Positions 9,728-46,495 of a stretch of DNA of 64,000 nucleotides are shown in pieces; the stretch's first letter is position 1, and each line of letters opens with the position of its first letter. A program made the translations under genes and the position numbers. The notes below the pieces were generated by a model. The model did no database searches and had not been told where the DNA came from. It worked only from the letters and a program-made list of their open reading frames with translations. The DNA is from a virus, in IMG/VR virus record IMGVR_UViG_3300031707_000001, positions 62,001 to 126,000 of that record, one strand, 5' to 3'.

Positions 9728-9886
9728 ATGACTGTAGCTGAATTGAAAGATGAACTGGATGCATACCCAGGAGACTGGAAAGTCTTTATAGACTCCAGTG
9801 GATCGGTTGCAACACTCAAGGTAGAAAATACAAAAAAGCCAGGTGATAAAAACGATATCATCATGGAAGAAGATGACGAAGTATGA
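9728..9886 (+). CDS. Small acidic hypothetical protein
   Basis: 52 residues, MTVAELKDELDAYPGDWKVF..., after GAGGAG. The opening resembles many small phage proteins of the TVxELxxxLxxxPxDxxV kind. It has an acidic C-terminus (EEDDEV). The next gene starts in its stop. Confidence 0.6.
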   Translation: MTVAELKDELDAYPGDWKVFIDSSGSVATLKVENTKKPGDKNDIIMEEDDEV

Positions 9887-10095
9887 AAAAGAAAGCTATG
9901 TGGCGGGACCCACAAAAGAAGATCGTGCCAAATCCAGGAAGCGATGAAGCTCTGGGAAAAGGTTGCAAGTGTCCAGTAATGGACAATGAACATGGAAAAG
10001 GATGGATGGGTCAACGAAATCTATTCGTCATGTCTGGTGATTGTCCACTTCACGGCAAGTTGATGGCTAAAGCCAAGCCAGTACGGAGGAATTAG
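9883..10095 (+). CDS. Small basic hypothetical protein
   Basis: 70 residues, Lys-rich, with a CKCPVMDNEHG segment and a later CPLHG, possibly a zinc site. It starts in the preceding stop (ATGA). The function is not recognised. Confidence 0.55.
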   Translation: MKKKAMWRDPQKKIVPNPGSDEALGKGCKCPVMDNEHGKGWMGQRNLFVMSGDCPLHGKLMAKAKPVRRN

Positions 10096-10098
10096 ACG

Positions 10099-10482
10099 AT
10101 GTGTAGAGCACACTATTCAGGACCAGGATTGGTTGAGATAAAGCCATACAAGGAAAGGCTCAAACCCAACGGCAGACCGAATGGAACCTTTGTCATTTCC
10201 ATTGACGATGGTTATGTCGAGTACTCCTACGACCTGCGTCTTCGCAGCGAAAAGTATAGTATAGACTATGAAAAGATTTTCTTCAATGTCAGGGACAAGG
10301 ACGGCCGGTTGCACGAATCCAGTTTCATTAGGATGAATTTTGAATCAGATACGCTTTCGTTTGGAAGCTTAGCCCCCAAAGACCTTAATATTCACCCATA
10401 CCCGGCTATAATACATGTAGGTATTATATCTGTACAACTAACAACCAAAAGGAGACAGTGTTATGAAGATCATCGTTTCTAA
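10099..10482 (+). CDS. Chimeric gene carrying copied pieces of the 44-kb virion gene
   Basis: A 127-residue frame from ATG 10099 after CGGAGGAATTAGACG. Residues up to about 56 are unique. Bases 10266-10338 are identical to 44408-44480, and bases 10339-10368 are identical to 44297-44326, in the same reading sense but in swapped order. The shared peptide is YEKIFFNVRDKDGRLHESSF. After the copied part the frame runs through a promoter (10384-10421) into the next gene, so the C-terminus looks accidental. It may be a gene broken by template switching. Confidence 0.5.
   Translation: MCRAHYSGPGLVEIKPYKERLKPNGRPNGTFVISIDDGYVEYSYDLRLRSEKYSIDYEKIFFNVRDKDGRLHESSFIRMNFESDTLSFGSLAPKDLNIHPYPAIIHVGIISVQLTTKRRQCYEDHRF
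10266..10368 (+). repeat. Dispersed duplication from 44297-44480, pieces permuted
   Basis: 73 bp match 44408-44480 exactly and the next 30 bp match 44297-44326 exactly. In the 44-kb gene the 30-bp piece lies upstream of the 73-bp piece with 81 bases between. Exact identity suggests a recent event. Confidence 0.9.
10384..10421 (+). promoter_or_regulatory. Promoter of the CTTAAT-N17-TATAAN family (copy 2)
   Basis: CTTAAT (10384-10389), a 17-bp spacer and TATAAT (10407-10412), then ACATGTAGG, identical to copy 1 from the -10 on. It drives the 45-codon gene at 10463. Confidence 0.8.
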
Positions 10483-10600
10483 CATGACAGCAGCAGCTTC
10501 GGCATTCTCGGCTCAGACGATTGGGTTGCGGACTACAATGCAAAGTACTGCACGGTTGCCGACGTTCCCGTGGAACCGGTTCCCGTGGTCTAAACGTTAG
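10463..10600 (+). CDS. 45-residue peptide in its own transcription unit
   Basis: ATG 10463 follows AAAGGAGACAGTGTT. The peptide MKIIVSNMTAAASAFSAQTI... is rich in Thr, Ala and Arg and ends PWNRFPWSKR. It lies between the promoter at 10384-10421 and the terminator at 10615-10648, so it is probably made early and alone. It has no known family. Small stand-alone phage peptides are often host take-over factors, which is only a guess here. Confidence 0.5.
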   Translation: MKIIVSNMTAAASAFSAQTIGLRTTMQSTARLPTFPWNRFPWSKR

Positions 10601-10614
10601 GGTTGGAGGTGAAG

Positions 10615-10648
10615 GAACGTCCGGGGACTACAACCCGGGCGTTCTTTT
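10615..10648 (+). terminator. Rho-independent terminator
   Basis: An 11-bp stem GAACGTCCGGG/CCCGGGCGTTC (10615-10625/10634-10644) has an 8-nt loop, then TTTT. Confidence 0.85.
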
Positions 10649-12481: not shown

Positions 12482-13026
12482 AAAGACTCACGTTAACAAG
12501 AGAACAACGTAATGCCAAGGTGCTACGCTATGTGGCCGAGCACAGTCCAAAGACGTGGGCTACAGCTATACGTAAGCGCTTCGAAACCGTGCTTAAAGCG
12601 CTGCGTCGGTACGAAGTTGAGCTCAACTCAATCTGCATAACTTTGTTGGGAAACGTTCGGACTAATCCGAACGGAAAGTACTATGATCAGGATCACTTTA
12701 GTTTGGGATGCCCACACTGCAATGACTTTCAGTGTCAGAGTGAAAATGGCAACTGCTTGTATGTTAAGGCGTGCAAGTTATATGGTATACGCTGTTATAC
12801 CTACGACTGTGCGTCGATTAGGTTTGGCGGGTTTACGTTGGATGATGTATCTGGTAGCGATGTTTCAGTTACATTGGCATCAGATGGTGTAAAAACAAGG
12901 GTCGCCGTATTGGGAACCGAAAGAACGACCCGTGTATTAAAGCAATTAGAGCAGTGCGTGGCGTTTTGCAAGGGTCACATTGCCTGGGCGAACAAACCTT
13001 ACTGGGGGAGGAAGTACAAGAAATGA
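12478..13026 (+). CDS. YWGRK-family Cys-rich protein, paralogue 2
   Basis: 182 residues. It shares with its paralogues RYVAEHSPKTWATAIRKRF near the N-terminus, GCPHC near residue 77, a second Cys pair region (CLYVKAC), RFGGFTLDDV near residue 121 and the C-terminal HIAWANKPYWGRK. The conserved C-terminus and paired Cys suggest a small zinc domain plus a nucleic-acid or protein-binding tail. It overlaps genes on both sides by four bases. Confidence 0.7.
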   Translation: MKRLTLTREQRNAKVLRYVAEHSPKTWATAIRKRFETVLKALRRYEVELNSICITLLGNVRTNPNGKYYDQDHFSLGCPHCNDFQCQSENGNCLYVKACKLYGIRCYTYDCASIRFGGFTLDDVSGSDVSVTLASDGVKTRVAVLGTERTTRVLKQLEQCVAFCKGHIAWANKPYWGRKYKK

Positions 13027-13388
13027 GAAGAATCACGATTAAGGAATACAAGGCCGAACTGAAGAAGCAAGGCGTATCACGCAACAACGTATGCTTCGTC
13101 TGTCCGGCCTGCGGCACGGTGCAGAGCGCCGACGACCTGATCAAGGCAGGCGCCGGCAAAAAGTTCGAGGACGTCAGGAAGTACCTGGGGTTCTCCTGCG
13201 TGGGAAGGTTCACCGGAATGAATCAACCTCCCAAGGTAAAGGGAACCCAGGTAGGGTGTGATTGGACCCTGGGAGGGTTGCTTGGCATTCACCAGTTGGT
13301 GGTGATAACTCCGGACGACGAATCGCATCCCTGCTTTGAGATAGCATCTCCGGAGCAGGCGCAGAAACACTTGGAGGCAAAAACGTGA
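13023..13388 (+). CDS. VVA0879-family phage protein
   Basis: 121 residues from ATG 13023 (ATGA overlap). It contains VCFVCPACGTVQSADDLIKA and KYLGFSCVGRFTG, then CDWTLGGLL and FEIASPEQAQKHLE near the end. This is the pattern of the VVA0879 family, widespread in phages and of unknown function. The Cys pairs probably hold zinc. It is embedded between two paralogues of the YWGRK family. Confidence 0.75.
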   Translation: MRRITIKEYKAELKKQGVSRNNVCFVCPACGTVQSADDLIKAGAGKKFEDVRKYLGFSCVGRFTGMNQPPKVKGTQVGCDWTLGGLLGIHQLVVITPDDESHPCFEIASPEQAQKHLEAKT

Positions 13389-13861
13389 ACAGGTACAAGA
13401 CAGACTGGAAGGTGTTGCGCTACATAGCAGAGCGGTCTCCGAAGCACTTTGCAACGCAGATTCGCAAGCGCAATCAGGGATTGCTGGATGCCTTGAACAA
13501 AAGACGGGATAGATTTATATCGTCCGTTGGATGTCCACACTGTGACGGTGATTGCTGTTCCTGCCTATGGTCGGAAGCGTATAAGCATTATCATTCTGAT
13601 AGGTTGCATATCATCATGAACGCCTGCGTTCTCGTGAACTTTGGTGGGTTGCATATCATGAACGCCTGCGTTCTCGTGAACTTTGGTGGGTACAGCATAC
13701 CCGATGTTCGGCAAGTCGTGAGTTATTGGAGTTTCCAGGAACAGGTTAAATCCATTCACGACAGCAACGTCCGGGAAATCATGAAAGCCAAGGCTTTCCT
13801 GAAAGCCCACATAGCGTGGACCAAAAAGCCCTACTGGGGCAGGAAGGTCAAGCATACATGA
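13385..13861 (+). CDS. YWGRK-family Cys-rich protein, paralogue 3
   Basis: 158 residues from GTG 13385. RYIAERSPKHFATQIRKRN, GCPHCDGDCCSCLW, VNFGGYSI and the end HIAWTKKPYWGRK match the family. An internal in-frame tandem duplication (13603-13689) repeats the peptide MNACVLVNFGG, so this copy carries a recent insertion of 14 residues. Confidence 0.7.
   Translation: MNRYKTDWKVLRYIAERSPKHFATQIRKRNQGLLDALNKRRDRFISSVGCPHCDGDCCSCLWSEAYKHYHSDRLHIIMNACVLVNFGGLHIMNACVLVNFGGYSIPDVRQVVSYWSFQEQVKSIHDSNVREIMKAKAFLKAHIAWTKKPYWGRKVKHT
13603..13689 (+). repeat. In-frame tandem duplication, 45 and 42 bp
   Basis: Bases 13603-13647 and 13648-13689 are the same sequence apart from one extra ATC/CAT triplet in the first copy. 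They lie inside paralogue 3 and keep its frame. Confidence 0.9.
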
Positions 13862-14343
13862 AGCGAAAGACGCACAAGACAGACTGGGCCGTACTTCGAC
13901 GGGTAGCAGAGCGAAGCCCGAAGAGCTTTGCTCTGCGCATACGCAGGCGCAACGTTGGGCTATTGCGAGCCCTGGAGAAGCACAATTGGGTCTTCTCTTC
14001 CCACGTGGGATGTCCGCACTGTGTCGACTGCGAAACTTGCCTTTGGATAGAGGCAATGAAAGCAGTAAAGAACGTCAACGATGGATGTTGCGGAGTGCGT
14101 TTTGGTGGACTACCCCTACGTAGAATACATATGATTGCATATGATTCTACTTCAGAAAAGGTGTACTCACCAAACACCCTGCCCGGAGATCTGTTTCTAC
14201 GATACTTCAACGACGCAGTACGCTTCGTGAAAGCCCACATAGCGTGGACCAAAAAGCCCTACTGGGGCAGGAAGCTCAATAAACCAAAAAGCCCTACTGG
14301 GGCAGGAAGCTCAATAAACCATGAAGAAACTCAACACACGTGA
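13858..14343 (+). CDS. YWGRK-family Cys-rich protein, paralogue 4, with altered C-terminus
   Basis: 161 residues from ATG 13858, overlapping the previous stop (ATGA). RRVAERSPKSFALRIRRRN, GCPHCVDCETCLW, RFGGLPL and HIAWTKKPYWGRK match the family. A 35-bp tandem duplication at 14248-14317 shifts the frame of the second copy, adding a tail that reads KPKSPTGAGSSIN. The extra 20 residues are therefore likely new. The N-termini of paralogues 3 and 4 are very alike, so they duplicated from each other. Confidence 0.7.
   Translation: MKRKTHKTDWAVLRRVAERSPKSFALRIRRRNVGLLRALEKHNWVFSSHVGCPHCVDCETCLWIEAMKAVKNVNDGCCGVRFGGLPLRRIHMIAYDSTSEKVYSPNTLPGDLFLRYFNDAVRFVKAHIAWTKKPYWGRKLNKPKSPTGAGSSINHEETQHT
14248..14317 (+). 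repeat. 35-bp perfect tandem duplication
   Basis: Bases 14248-14282 are repeated exactly at 14283-14317. The unit length is not a multiple of three, so the C-terminus of paralogue 4 is frameshifted relative to its family. Confidence 0.92.
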
Positions 14344-24295: not shown

Positions 24296-25002
24296 ACAAA
24301 ATAGCAAGTTTTCGTTTAGATGCAGATTCTGCCTTGGTAAAGCTGTTAGACCAATTTTCGGCGAATCGGGCAGCGGCAAAAGCAAAGTCTGTCTATGACA
24401 ATGTAATGAAAGCTAAGGCTGTTCAAGACGCTGCAAGACAAGCTAAGGCCATTGAATCATCAGCAAAATCTAGAGTTGCAATGATAGCTCGGGCTATTCG
24501 AGAGGCCAACGAAAAGCTTCATCCTCAGGGAAATATCGGTTCTCAGGAATTAACTAAAGCGGTACCTGCAGTGCTTCCTTCAGAGAGTTTAGAAAAAGAG
24601 CGTATTGCTGCATTGCGTCGGGCTTATGCTGCCAAGACTCCAAGGAAGGAATTCAAACCTATTCCGACAACGTATCCGGTGAATCATGTTGTGGATACTT
24701 TCAAGCATATTGTAGGTACGCCACCGACTCCCACCGTACAGTTACCACCGGGAAAGAAGCCGCCGTTGGGTGATCTGCAAAGTTTGTTGATTACACCTAA
24801 GCAGGGAAGTGTAACACCTTACGAACAAGGTTTCATTACTAAAACGGCTGCGCTTCCACCTGAGGTTCGCTCAAGGCTGATGGTTTGGTTGCGTAAGATG
24901 TTTGGAATGGATAATACATCGCAGGCGCCCGGGGCTACACCTTTGGGATTGCCTGACGTTTCATCCGGATACGATCGTGTGTCGGCTATGCCTGTAAAAT
25001 AA
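24292..25002 (+). CDS. Probable virion protein with a GFI motif
   Basis: 236 residues from GTG 24292, overlapping the portal stop. It is Ala/Lys-rich and helical at the start (ANRAAAKAKSVYDNVMKAKA). Near residue 180 it has YEQGFITKTAALPPEV, one form of the motif shared by proteins of this block. Function unknown. Confidence 0.55.
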   Translation: MNKIASFRLDADSALVKLLDQFSANRAAAKAKSVYDNVMKAKAVQDAARQAKAIESSAKSRVAMIARAIREANEKLHPQGNIGSQELTKAVPAVLPSESLEKERIAALRRAYAAKTPRKEFKPIPTTYPVNHVVDTFKHIVGTPPTPTVQLPPGKKPPLGDLQSLLITPKQGSVTPYEQGFITKTAALPPEVRSRLMVWLRKMFGMDNTSQAPGATPLGLPDVSSGYDRVSAMPVK

Positions 25003-26747: not shown

Positions 26748-27327
26748 GATAGGTAAACGTACCATCTTTGGCCAATAGGTGTTCAATATCATGACAGTTG
26801 GGACATACTACTTCGATGTTGTTTGGATCACTGTTTGCGTGGTTATGATCTTTGTGGTGGCGTTTCAATATTTCCGGATATTTATTGAATCCACAGCGTT
26901 CGCATTTAAGCATTTTACTTCTAGGCATGACATCGGAAGGACGAATTGGTTTTGGGGGTTCGTGCGCCCAGCGATACTGATCTGCACAACGCCTAGAGCA
27001 AAATTGTCTAGTTGGTTTGTGGCTTCGATTTACAAACGATTTTTGACATTGAATGCAAATCCATATTTTTATGGGTTTTTTAGGTTTGCAGGCGCAGGCT
27101 CTAGAACAGAACTTGGAAGTTGGAAGTCGTCCAATGAAAATCTTTCCACAACGCAGGCATGCCTTTGGCTTACGAGGTTGTTTCCAACAACTAAAAGAAC
27201 AGTATTTGGAATGTTTTCTACCGATAAATTCAGATCCACACTTCAGGCATATTTTTACGTATTTAACTCGTGGTTTGGTTTTCGTGGTCATATTTGTAGA
27301 CTTGCTATTTGAAAGATGTTTGTGCAT
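26578..27327 (-). CDS. HNH homing-type endonuclease with zinc-finger repeats (copy 1)
   Basis: On the minus strand, against all neighbours. Four CxxC...CSxxC repeats (for example CLKCGSEF...CSFSC) precede the HNH core: CERCGFNKYPEILKRHHKDH, then NIEVVCPNCH. ATG 27327 is taken as the start, and 27291 is possible by comparison with copy 2. After HLLAKDG the C-terminus runs about 55 residues antisense into the end of the gene at 25449. This suggests that it inserted right after that gene and lost its own stop. It is a free-standing selfish nuclease. Neighbouring genes are intact, so there is no intron around it. Confidence 0.8.
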   Translation of the reverse strand: MHKHLSNSKSTNMTTKTKPRVKYVKICLKCGSEFIGRKHSKYCSFSCWKQPRKPKACLRCGKIFIGRLPTSKFCSRACACKPKKPIKIWICIQCQKSFVNRSHKPTRQFCSRRCADQYRWAHEPPKPIRPSDVMPRSKMLKCERCGFNKYPEILKRHHKDHNHANSDPNNIEVVCPNCHDIEHLLAKDGTFTYLNFQTSDNPGIDQAACSTGYLSPYPNRILQLPIEPVQQAPCQNTLKLATQSCPQDP

Positions 27328-27796: not shown

Positions 27797-28309
27797 ATGA
27801 TCAAGTTAGCACAGTTGGAAGCTGCGTTGTCGAAGGTTAAGGGCGAAGTTAAAATCAAGAAGAGTTCAGCCAACTCTTTTTACCTGCAAGGTTTCATCCA
27901 GAAGTGTGCTGAAGCAGGTATGGATGCGGGACAGATCAAGCAGGCACTCGTTGACAAATTGATTAATGCGGGCCGACAGGTGGGAAAATATTTTGGTGGT
28001 TTGAAACATCAGTTTCGAGCAGGCAGGGATTATAACAAACTTTGGGGTAAAGATACTTGGGGAAAACAAGGTCCTTTCCGACCAAAAGATTTACCGGATG
28101 TAGCATACGGAGCTGGACACAAATATGACCAAATGCTTCAGAGTCCTGTCGGACAAGCTGTTGGATCAGCAGCCCACGGAGTCAGAGAAAATATGTCCCC
28201 ACTGATCCAATGGATAAAGCAGCATCCTATCTATGCTGGAGGTGTTGGTGTAGGTACCGCTGGAGCCGGCGCTGGACTACAAGCAGGTATTGGTGAAATG
28301 GGGGAATAA
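27797..28309 (+). CDS. Head-block protein with GFI motif and C-terminal glycine zipper
   Basis: 170 residues. FYLQGFIQKCAEAGMDAGQI near residue 27 is the motif. The end (GGVGVGTAGAGAGLQAG) is a glycine-zipper helix. It may be one of several internal proteins. The stop overlaps the next start. Confidence 0.55.
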   Translation: MIKLAQLEAALSKVKGEVKIKKSSANSFYLQGFIQKCAEAGMDAGQIKQALVDKLINAGRQVGKYFGGLKHQFRAGRDYNKLWGKDTWGKQGPFRPKDLPDVAYGAGHKYDQMLQSPVGQAVGSAAHGVRENMSPLIQWIKQHPIYAGGVGVGTAGAGAGLQAGIGEMGE

Positions 28310-41679: not shown

Positions 41680-44025
41680 ATGTCAAAGTTTACTTCGTTG
41701 CTAGCGAATCTGCCCGTCGGACTTACCAAGAACGCCGATATTGAAAGTCCAGATGAGGTACAACTGGAACAAGATTTTGCACGTCTGGCCTATACATTCC
41801 TCAAGGACCGGGCTGCAGGTTTGATTCCATATCTGTTGGGATTTGAAGTCGTCGAACGTGAAGAGGACGGATCGAAGGCCGTAGGAATGTTTGGTTTCAA
41901 GATCGGTAAGGACTATTACTACGTGCCGGCTTTCTTCGTGAACAACCAGATCAAAGGCATGGATCTGCTATTTTCGAAGAGCACTAATATGTTCGTGCCG
42001 CTTCGTGAGCCGTGGATCAACCACATCATCAATCGGCAGACCATTCAGTTGGGCGGACCTATTTCTGAGCCAGAGCCTCTTCTTCGCCGGCAGTTTGAGC
42101 GTCCCCGTTTCGACTTCCTGGCCACACCACCTACGTTTCCTACAGGTATTCCAAAGGCATCAGAAGTCAAGTCAGCTGAAGCTATCCAAGCTGGGTTCAG
42201 TGCTTGGAATGACTTGCAGCAAGCTATTATAGATTCCGTCGAAAAAGATGCCGAGTTTCAGAAGGCGTGGGCAGGTGCTATTGCTCGTCTGGAGGGCACA
42301 CCGCTACCGTTCGAAAAGACGGCCGAAGGAAGCCGGTTGATCGATTGGATTGAAAAGAAGGGTGGAGTAAAAGCCGTCAACGTATTGTTCAAGACGATCA
42401 CAGAGAATCCAGGATTTGCCAAAGCAGCGTTGACGTTCTATCCCAATATTGAATCCTTGTTCGTAACGAAGTTTGCTGCTGAACTGGCGCCAGTGAAACA
42501 AGCTGCGAAGATTACAGTGATCACTGAAAAGACTGATTGGGTAGACGGTAAGGAAAAGAAACGCTTGGTGCGGGACGGGTTTACTATCCACGATACACGG
42601 GAACCTTCGGAGAAGTCCGAGACCTACGAGGTGGATTATGTCAAACGCTTCACAGCTCCAGATAAACCGGGTTTGTACAACGTGCTGCTACGTAACGGTG
42701 GGACGACACAGGCTTGGGTCTTCATGCCCTCTGCAGCGGCAAAGAACAAGTATTTGCTCGTTGTCGATACCGACGCCAAGAACTACTTCATGGCCGAACC
42801 CGGAGCACTATTTGTCCGAGATTCAGACATTATCGAAGGTCCCAATGCTTACTCAAAGGCCATAGATTTGTCTGATATGAAGATTGGGCACAAGTACATT
42901 ATGATCAATGCCCACGGGGAAGCATCTGTGCCAGTTGAAATCCGAAGCATCGTTGCTGAAGACGGTAAACGCATAAAGATGCACGTATACCATTTGAGTG
43001 GACCAAAGTATGAACGCCCAACTTACGGGCACGACTTCTCCACGCTGAAGACACACAGCAATATGGAACTGCAGAACGGGCCTGGCATTTGTGATCGGGA
43101 CTACATCCAGTTGGCTGACTATGAAGGCCGCAACTTGGCACAGGCTGGCCGTGATACAATCATTGTTCCAAGCAATTGGAAAGCATTGGAGATTCAGCCG
43201 GGCAACAAGGACATGGAAAGTTATGAGGCCAAGAACGTACAGGAAGACATGTTCCAGCCTGGCTCACAAACTGACGTAATGGATGCTTTGGCAAAGAACG
43301 CCTTCCACAAGGTTACGGTTGGATCCGATGACAAACTAGAGTATTACATCCAGATGGACGATAGCTTCGTGGACGGTAAGCCCATGAACTATAAGACAGC
43401 CATGGTTCGACTCGTATCCAAGTATGGCCTGGGTGTGGATGATTCAGAAACCATGCTCAAGGAAGCCAAGGATAACTTCAAGTCCAAGCGTCTCGTCAAG
43501 TTTGCACAGAGCCCAATGGTTGGTGTATACATGCCTCCAGAACAGCCTGTGACATATGGAATAGACGAGTTCAGTGGCGTAACAGAACAGCCGGCGCAGA
43601 ATCAGTTTATGCATGGCCAGATGACCGGCGTAGTTCCTCCACAGAACACAATGCGTCCTGGGTTCAACATTGGTGGTGAAACAGCCATGGACCTACAGGC
43701 AGCAGGGTTAGGCCAGGAAGCCGCAGGCGCCGGGCAGAAACAAGTATTCGACCACTCTACAATCGGGGGGCTGTCCAAGGTCTACGATTCCGGTGCAGTG
43801 ATTGATTCCTATGTTCCGGAACTGATGAAGTCCTTGGACCGTTTGGGACGTATCCTGTTCTTGTTCTATTGGAAGAACGAAGAGTTTACAGAACGCTATG
43901 GCAACGAAGACATGGCGGAAATGGAAGATACCATTCGGGGCGTGTTCAAGAGCTTTGGCGACCTGGTACTGCAGCTTCGTGAGAAGACCATTGGTTCCGA
44001 GGAATCAACGAACACGATCATATAA
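41680..44025 (+). CDS. Large structural protein of unknown role
   Basis: 781 residues from ATG 41680 after AAGGAG (41665-41670). The first 120 residues read as a globular domain (AGLIPYLLGFEVVEREEDGS). The middle is beta-rich with several HxYHLSGPKYERP-like strands, and the C-terminal 120 residues are helical (SYVPELMKSLDRLGRILFLF). Length and place between polymerase and capsid genes suggest a virion protein. The stop overlaps the next start by one base. Confidence 0.6.
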   Translation: MSKFTSLLANLPVGLTKNADIESPDEVQLEQDFARLAYTFLKDRAAGLIPYLLGFEVVEREEDGSKAVGMFGFKIGKDYYYVPAFFVNNQIKGMDLLFSKSTNMFVPLREPWINHIINRQTIQLGGPISEPEPLLRRQFERPRFDFLATPPTFPTGIPKASEVKSAEAIQAGFSAWNDLQQAIIDSVEKDAEFQKAWAGAIARLEGTPLPFEKTAEGSRLIDWIEKKGGVKAVNVLFKTITENPGFAKAALTFYPNIESLFVTKFAAELAPVKQAAKITVITEKTDWVDGKEKKRLVRDGFTIHDTREPSEKSETYEVDYVKRFTAPDKPGLYNVLLRNGGTTQAWVFMPSAAAKNKYLLVVDTDAKNYFMAEPGALFVRDSDIIEGPNAYSKAIDLSDMKIGHKYIMINAHGEASVPVEIRSIVAEDGKRIKMHVYHLSGPKYERPTYGHDFSTLKTHSNMELQNGPGICDRDYIQLADYEGRNLAQAGRDTIIVPSNWKALEIQPGNKDMESYEAKNVQEDMFQPGSQTDVMDALAKNAFHKVTVGSDDKLEYYIQMDDSFVDGKPMNYKTAMVRLVSKYGLGVDDSETMLKEAKDNFKSKRLVKFAQSPMVGVYMPPEQPVTYGIDEFSGVTEQPAQNQFMHGQMTGVVPPQNTMRPGFNIGGETAMDLQAAGLGQEAAGAGQKQVFDHSTIGGLSKVYDSGAVIDSYVPELMKSLDRLGRILFLFYWKNEEFTERYGNEDMAEMEDTIRGVFKSFGDLVLQLREKTIGSEESTNTII

Positions 44026-45014
44026 TGGAAATAGGTACTAAAACCGACAATGTTGTGGTTTGGACCCCATACGATGCGCTGTATCCGCAATTCGATTCAA
44101 GTTGGCGACATGGCGTGGCAAAAGGCATGGTCGACCATTCGAATTGGATATGTGCACTCCCAGAAATTGGTAAAGATCCTTGGGTCAGGGATCTCAAGGA
44201 CTATTTGGCTCAGTGTCGTAAATGGGGGCCTGATAGTTGTTTGGATAAAAGACTTTGGCCTTACCGCTATGTTATGGCCTGGCATGATCCAGGAAATTTG
44301 AATCAGATACGCTTTCGTTTGGAAGCGTTGTTGCTGACTGGAGCACCGTTCGATGTTATCAGCATGGACCTATCAGGTGGAGAATTGCCACCACAGCTAT
44401 TTCAGCTCTATGAAAAGATTTTCTTCAATGTCAGGGACAAGGACGGCCGGTTGCACGAATCCAGTTTCATTAGGATGAATGCGGCGCTGCCTGGAGGCCA
44501 GGCGTTGGATCGGAATACCCCGGCTGATGTGCTGTGGAAGTACATTGGCATGCGTTACGGGTATACCGGGTTGGTGTGGTACTGGGGAATGCCCAATCCA
44601 CACGGTAAATTGGAACACGATACGTTGATTATGGACGAGTTATGGCGTACAGCCCAGGCTATCATGATGGAAAGCGTGTTGCGACGAACCATAAATAACT
44701 TTGACCTGAACCACAATTTAGGCCAATATATAGATTATCAGCGTATGAGACACGAAACCGGAAAATCGACCGCAAAAGAAAATCAGGCCGAACTTGTTCT
44801 GTTGCAAGTCCTGCAGAAGTTTGCGCCCACTATGTTGGCAGCAAGCACCGAAATTGATAAGCAGCACGAGCGCACGGAGGCTATACGTAATCGACTGGCT
44901 GCCCAGGCGAATGTGGCGCAGCAGGTCATACCTGATTTTGGTAAGGATGTCGGGATGATTGGAATTGACAATTACATCAAACAGCACTTCAAAGAGGCTG
45001 ATCCGCAGAAGTAA
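44025..45014 (+). CDS. Hypothetical virion-block protein, source of the 10.3-kb duplication
   Basis: 329 residues. It contains WRHGVAKGMVDHSNWICALP and YEKIFFNVRDKDGRLHESSF near residue 128, and a helical C-terminus. Bases 44297-44326 and 44408-44480 are copied, in swapped order, into the gene at 10099. No family is recognised. Confidence 0.6.
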   Translation: MEIGTKTDNVVVWTPYDALYPQFDSSWRHGVAKGMVDHSNWICALPEIGKDPWVRDLKDYLAQCRKWGPDSCLDKRLWPYRYVMAWHDPGNLNQIRFRLEALLLTGAPFDVISMDLSGGELPPQLFQLYEKIFFNVRDKDGRLHESSFIRMNAALPGGQALDRNTPADVLWKYIGMRYGYTGLVWYWGMPNPHGKLEHDTLIMDELWRTAQAIMMESVLRRTINNFDLNHNLGQYIDYQRMRHETGKSTAKENQAELVLLQVLQKFAPTMLAASTEIDKQHERTEAIRNRLAAQANVAQQVIPDFGKDVGMIGIDNYIKQHFKEADPQK

Positions 45015-45025
45015 GGAGCAAACTC

Positions 45026-46495
45026 ATGCCAGTACCAACGTTCAAAGAATCATTGATGAATGCACTGCATTCGTCGGTTCGTTATTTCAATGAAGGGGTA
45101 GATCCGAACCGGGCCGTTATCAAAGCGGCACAGGATTTTGATTTCAATCCTGATCAGACTACTCGTTTGGTGGAAACGTTCAACACAGCCCGTACGATCT
45201 ATCATTATAAGAGTGCTGCCGATCGTACACTGCCATTCAGCATTGCTGACTCTGCAGTAGTAATTCCTGCCATTTTCGAGACGAAGAAAACAGCAGAAAA
45301 ACCGTCTCAATCTACGCACGATTATTCGGGATATGAAATTCCTGAAGCCGATTATCGTGACAGTACGATGATCAAGGCTTCCGTTGGTGTGAATGATGTT
45401 GATATCCCTGCACCTCGTGAATATCTCGATACCAACCTGAACTCACAGGGCATTCGAGCCATGGAGATGATCCGGACACAGCGCAAACTGGCGGAAGCAG
45501 CCCGTGATGAATCTAGGGTCCATGCTACCAAGGCAGCCACAATTTTCACAGCCGTGGCTAATGAACTGTCCCGGGGCTACGAAGAACAATGCCAGGATAA
45601 GTACAACCGTCTGGTTGGCGGTTACCAGAAATATGCATCCAAAGACATGGTAGAGTTCTGGAACCCAGTATTGACCAAGCTGGGTGAATTCATGCCCAAG
45701 TGGATGGTCAAAGGCGCCGAGGCCGTAAAAGAGGAAACGGTATATGATGATCGTGATCTTACGGCGTATACGGACTTGTTGAAAGAAGCCAAGGGGCTTA
45801 TGGAGATCGAAGCTGAAATGTTGGCCGTGGCCAGTGTCCTGGAAAAGGAAGCTTCTGATTTCGAACGGGAATGGATGGAAGCAATTGCTCCCGTTCTGCC
45901 AAAGGTGACTAAGAAGGAGGCCGCCTCCCTCACGGATTTTATTGATTCTCGTCTGCTGAAGGCGGCAGACGAGACTGTTTCTACCGAACGTGATACCCAA
46001 AGTTGGTTGACGGGTGAACCGGTCAAGATCAAGACGCAGAAGACGACAGGTAAGCCCAGTGATTCCGTGGTAGGCAAGGCAATGACTGAAGCTGTTACTG
46101 AACCTGTATCCGGTATGGTAGGCACGGGCATTGATTCTGCTTTGCGGAGTATAGTGATGGCGCCCTCCAAGAAACAGAATGTACAGTTGTCTGAACGTCT
46201 AAAGAACGTGCAGCGCCAGCTCATACTTGAAGATTTGATGACCAATGATCCAGTATTGAGCGAAGAGAATCCCGAGACCGTATCACAGGCGTATTCAGCT
46301 GTGCTGAACATGGCGCCGGAGCTGTCTGCCAATAAGGAAATTGTGCGGGCCATTCTTCGCCAGGCCGTTCATTCCGTGGCTATCAGCCCATTCGAAGCTG
46401 AGACCTGGACCAAGCTGGAACAGAATATTCGCAACATAGCCGGGAAGACAGATGTTCGTGGCCGGCCGATAGAAACTGGGGGAGAACGCAAATGA
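45026..46495 (+). CDS. Helical virion-block protein
   Basis: 489 residues after AAGGAG. YFNEGVDPNRAVIKAAQDF near residue 16 keeps the GVDP part of the recurrent motif. Long charged helices follow (residues about 140-310), then LTDFIDSRLLKAADET and a C-terminal helical domain. Function unknown. It overlaps the next gene by four bases. Confidence 0.55.
   Translation: MPVPTFKESLMNALHSSVRYFNEGVDPNRAVIKAAQDFDFNPDQTTRLVETFNTARTIYHYKSAADRTLPFSIADSAVVIPAIFETKKTAEKPSQSTHDYSGYEIPEADYRDSTMIKASVGVNDVDIPAPREYLDTNLNSQGIRAMEMIRTQRKLAEAARDESRVHATKAATIFTAVANELSRGYEEQCQDKYNRLVGGYQKYASKDMVEFWNPVLTKLGEFMPKWMVKGAEAVKEETVYDDRDLTAYTDLLKEAKGLMEIEAEMLAVASVLEKEASDFEREWMEAIAPVLPKVTKKEAASLTDFIDSRLLKAADETVSTERDTQSWLTGEPVKIKTQKTTGKPSDSVVGKAMTEAVTEPVSGMVGTGIDSALRSIVMAPSKKQNVQLSERLKNVQRQLILEDLMTNDPVLSEENPETVSQAYSAVLNMAPELSANKEIVRAILRQAVHSVAISPFEAETWTKLEQNIRNIAGKTDVRGRPIETGGERK

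Follow-up and report, generated by a model that had tools for sequence, protein, structure and literature searches.

Illegitimate recombination in phage genomes leaves non-homologous joints that survive at gene boundaries. Short templated insertions have been well studied in animal, yeast and cancer genomes. MMBIR, FoSTeS and polymerase theta end joining, described mainly in eukaryotes, produce short exact ectopic copies of neighbouring pieces at one insertion site while the donor is kept (compare PMC8421209 and PMC11724301). In cattle color-sidedness, KIT translocations of hundreds of kilobases carry segments in swapped order, as when a circle opens at another point (PMC3927395). The locus described here shares with the templated processes the short exact copies, the neighbouring pieces, the single insertion site and the retained donor, but it lies in a dsDNA phage and its junctions lack perfect microhomology. 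Relative to illegitimate phage recombination, it differs in being pieced together from a gene of the phage itself, whose donor copy has stayed in place; relative to the KIT case, it involves only 103 bp, and a circle is only hypothetical. A literature search of limited extent found no comparable report from a phage.

The DNA analyzed (the window, 64,000 nucleotides) comprises bases 62001–126000 of a 210,732-bp virus record and encodes multisubunit RNA polymerase subunits, as part of a large dsDNA phage. By RNA polymerase, Salmonella phage Arash and Vibrio phages (about 30% identity) are the closest named relatives, and window positions 1–24000 gave no megablast match among phage records. The features of the two loci concerned are the following.

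10099–10265, plus strand: native 5′ portion of the gene that received the block; 56 aa when the flanks are joined, then TAG at once
10266–10338, plus strand: patch B, exact copy of 44408–44480, donor's frame kept (YEKIFFNVRDKDGRLHESSFIRMN)
10339–10368, plus strand: patch A, exact copy of 44297–44326, in a frame that differs from the donor's
10369–10482, plus strand: run-on tail of the present 127-aa ORF, which crosses a promoter-like site and enters the next ORF; probably not native coding sequence
10385–10412, plus strand: sigma-70-like promoter match TTAATA-16-TATAAT, 10/12; such matches are near chance density here
10463–10600, plus strand: small ORF that follows (45 aa, MKIIVSNMT...), into which the run-on tail extends
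44025–45014, plus strand: donor gene, 329 aa, synteny conserved in G002, G001 and L004
44297–44326, plus strand: donor segment A, by string comparison
44408–44480, plus strand: donor segment B, by string comparison

String comparison shows that patch B is identical to its donor at 73/73 positions and patch A at 30/30, both on the same strand, and that the 103-bp block at 10266–10368 carries the segments in the order B then A, swapped relative to the A...B order at 44 kb. These are the 73-bp and 30-bp copies in swapped order reported by the first-pass annotation. A search of the whole 210,732-bp record finds the A and B sequences nowhere beyond the 10-kb and 44-kb loci. When dispersed repeats are defined as copies of at least 26 bp lying more than 3 kb apart, A and B are the only ones in the record, apart from the 127-bp overlap of its ends; the search for other patchworks that the annotation had proposed thus gave no further dispersed patch of at least 26 bp. 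The matches expected by chance number about 4e-13 for a 30-mer and 5e-39 for a 73-mer, and a chance origin is excluded. Since the copies are exact, the copying event is probably recent, as the annotation had also proposed. Exact 24-mer scans of viral and genome collections returned no second copy and no other isolate.

The record is a metagenome-derived contig, which raises the question of whether a chimeric molecule from library preparation or amplification, or an assembly error, placed the block there. The contig ends overlap by exactly 127 bp, as do those of the relative G002, and the contig closes on this overlap; end repeats of assembler k-mer length are a trace of a circular template according to the CheckV authors (PMC8116208). 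The assembler k was presumably 127 here. If so, one word spans the 103-bp block together with flank, and the 73-bp and 30-bp repeats fall short of the length at which contigs could be misjoined, making repeat-driven misassembly unlikely. In addition, the B|A joint offers no perfect repeat for misjoining, a chimeric read should lose to the normal path, and similar patches occur in a second record, G001. An artifact is therefore unlikely in our judgment.

The direction of copying follows from the donor gene. Its orthologues in G002, G001 and L004 (35%, 25% and 18% identity, respectively) lie directly or closely downstream of one shared gene in all three of these other phage lineages; the C-terminus of that upstream gene is LDRLGRILFLFYWKNEEF in the window and is very similar in the other phages. 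The peptide encoded by segment B reads YEKIFFNVRDKDG, YERLYFNIRLDDG, YEKLFYHCRAADG and YEKIFFNV--SDR in the donor and its orthologues, and counterparts of the segment A peptide (RFRLEALLLT, KFKLEPLLLT and the like) precede it in all orthologues. Because the orthologues natively carry A...B in frame, the 44-kb copy is ancestral and the 10-kb block derived, in agreement with the first-pass assignment of the 44-kb gene as the source; copying from 10 kb to 44 kb is ruled out on the same grounds. The predicted structure of the donor protein is mostly helical, with low confidence (mean pLDDT 53).

At the recipient site, the block begins within codon 56 of the ORF at 10099–10482. With 10265 joined directly to 10369, the flanks read MCRAHYSG...KYSID and then an immediate in-frame TAG. 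The block therefore probably sits at the stop codon of a 56-aa ancestor that it lengthened to 127 aa; a random join would place a stop in the next codon with a chance of about 0.035, a value that is supportive rather than proof. The 127-aa frame keeps the donor's frame in patch B, reads patch A in a different one, and then continues across the promoter-like site, which starts 16 bp downstream of the block, into the start of the next ORF. Given this path, the last 71 residues are probably accidental. The earlier placement of the copies inside a small gene next to a promoter thus holds for the proximity of the promoter-like site and for the 3′ end of an ORF, but the block probably landed at a stop codon rather than midway in a pre-existing gene.

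No credible homologue was found for the 56-aa part. A match to L035/L036 is spurious, lying on the strand opposite a 318-aa ORF, and weak matches to phage head-completion proteins (E 6–9) were discarded. With the 127-aa ORF, tblastn gave a weak match (E 0.1 over the collection) in Staphylococcus jumbo phages, to a hypothetical protein encoded next to a virion gene; we take this as chance since the match spans the B|A joint and reads A in the non-donor frame, and since the donor protein itself is unmatched there.

The gene upstream of the recipient is also small (9883–10095). It encodes a 70-aa cysteine-containing protein (KGCKCPVMDNEHGKGWMGQRNLFVMSGDCPLHG) with relatives in 27 viral contigs, at 51–60% identity over about 42 residues, and 10 of these 27 records yielded no relative of the RNA polymerase encoded here. 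On the other side, 3′ of the 45-aa ORF, a G+C-rich inverted repeat (GAACGTCCGGG ... CCCGGGCGTTC) followed by TTTT was seen by eye at 10615–10644; it is terminator-like, though the scanner did not list it. Farther along, an exact 37-bp repeat at 13613–13691 has its copies 42 bp apart, and related 69-nt copies (62–88%) occupy 12964–14327. We read both as local tandem or paralogous duplication.

Fifteen other phage records or contigs were compared with themselves for dispersed patches. G001, which belongs to the same RNA polymerase clade, contains two exact dispersed patches, both inverted.

13731–13793 (L086:13731-13793), 63 bp: inverted copy of 24745–24807 (L087:4745-4807), whose donor lies inside a 157-aa gene
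44808–44834 (L088:4808-4834), 27 bp: inverted relative to 28247–28273 (L087:8247-8273), where the other copy lies inside a 503-aa gene

The start of the 63-bp patch coincides with the final codon and stop of a 268-aa gene. Of its flanking bases, 8/11 match the donor flank, as would be expected if switching used partial homology. The 27-bp patch supplies the C-terminal residues GRDRSSRR of a 492-aa gene, the orthologue of window positions 45026–46495, whose C-terminal tail varies among orthologues. In G001 the positions of the patches point to the direction of copying given here. No patch of at least 26 bp at 98% identity was found in G002, G003, G005 or G006, which indicates that the patching process is rare. 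Records from outside the clade (G011–G015) contain many dispersed repeats, mostly multicopy or diverged families, and provide no clean base rate.

Three exact patches in two related phages thus all lie at gene 3′ ends. We read them as products of a rare mutational process that is tolerated mainly at gene ends, a position most likely explained by survival, since a densely packed genome would not keep insertions at other places. A stronger proposal would have recurrent templated insertion operate across the clade, with a mechanism that itself prefers gene ends and pastes short copies of a phage's own genes onto them, thereby extending C-termini and creating new protein tails. We consider this improbable. 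Three cases that were picked out in hindsight do not allow a stronger conclusion than survival at gene ends.

The first-pass annotation also suggested that the segment might be a deliberate regulatory homology. In that case the block would be kept for its function, such as the production of a minus-strand RNA complementary to the mRNA of the 44-kb gene. The exact identity of the copies, a weak minus-strand promoter-like site (10436 to 10408) that points into the block, and the inversion of the 63-bp patch in G001 relative to its donor would all fit such a role. Promoter-like sites, however, occur near chance density, with seven in a 3.1-kb stretch where shuffles predict 3.4 ± 1.5 on both strands, and fold energies are ordinary on the two strands (z +1.6 and −0.7). 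Searches of Rfam, folding, and comparison with G001 and G002 yielded neither a structured or conserved RNA nor a second copy in relatives; each of these two phages carries its own donor orthologue only once, and different phages have used different donors. A functional element is accordingly unlikely, and this part of the annotation found no support.

The junctions bear on how the block was formed. At the B|A joint, 44480 is joined to 44297, exactly as if a single 184-bp stretch (44297–44480) had been linked head to tail, and the 81 bp that separate A from B in the gene are missing from the block. Judging from the arrangement of the pieces, the swapped order would be obtainable by one back-jump of a polymerase, by copying a piece of a transient tandem duplication, or by opening and trimming a small circle. 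That a simple duplication is unable to swap the order, as the annotation stated, is true of a single-step copy, but one extra joint of this kind suffices. None of the three junctions in the window has perfect microhomology (0/3), and B|A has only GAA in common, adjoining a mismatch.

As in templated insertions, the inserted pieces match a template elsewhere exactly, the donor is retained, and more than one piece derives from neighbouring template positions (A and B, 81 bp apart in one gene). With moderate confidence, we favor a recent ectopic templated insertion, in which DNA was copied from the 44-kb gene with a back-jump and placed at 10.3 kb. Repair or replication at the 3′ end of the small gene near 10.3 kb would have turned to copying from the 44-kb gene, with the 73 bp of B copied first. 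The nascent end would then have jumped back 184 nt on the same template and copied the 30 bp of A, after which the growing end would have rejoined the original site at 10.3 kb. The resulting 103-bp insertion would have struck the stop codon of the 56-aa gene, giving the 127-aa reading frame, presumably as a neutral event.

Alternatively, a 184-bp piece of the 44-kb gene may have been circularized, or two short fragments ligated head to tail, with loss of 81 bp and end joining at a site near 10.3 kb where the DNA had broken. A circle of this kind would contain exactly the B|A joint, perfect microhomology is missing from all three junctions, the phage encodes a DNA ligase, and reordering via circular intermediates has been described for the cattle KIT translocations (PMC3927395). 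Against this, a search of the phage genome revealed no Ku, the pieces, at 73 and 30 bp, are short for capture, the absence of 81 bp from the 184-bp stretch requires a further loss, and the partial flanking homology in G001 (8/11) favors copying. We regard fragment capture as the less likely of the two, and we infer back-jump DNA synthesis rather than the joining of fragments or of a small circle. Template switching or end joining, as named in the first-pass annotation, stands as the best class of mechanism.

Besides the ligase, the phage encodes a family-A DNA polymerase and HNH nuclease domains. These proteins could supply the breaks and the synthesis required by the templated insertion that we favor, and may have acted here. 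We set aside reverse transcription and Ku-dependent joining by phage proteins, as neither a reverse transcriptase nor Ku was found. Outside the window, at G000:C1:199399-202486 (L157, L158), the match to family-A DNA polymerase is split in two, and an HNH domain (202068–202196) lies just ahead of the second part; the gene is probably interrupted by a homing element. A further HNH-domain match lies on the minus strand at 26779–26904, overlapping a plus-strand ORF at 26779–27312.

In all likelihood the event adds one more case to a known class of rearrangement; its interest is moderate and stems mainly from G001 showing the same. The three events at 3′ ends suggest that self-copied scraps can provide large phages with new C-terminal tails. 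Small, orphan-looking phage ORFs could arise by this route, which can be tested. Should the process be only rare background mutation, patchwork orphan ORFs of this type may be accidents.
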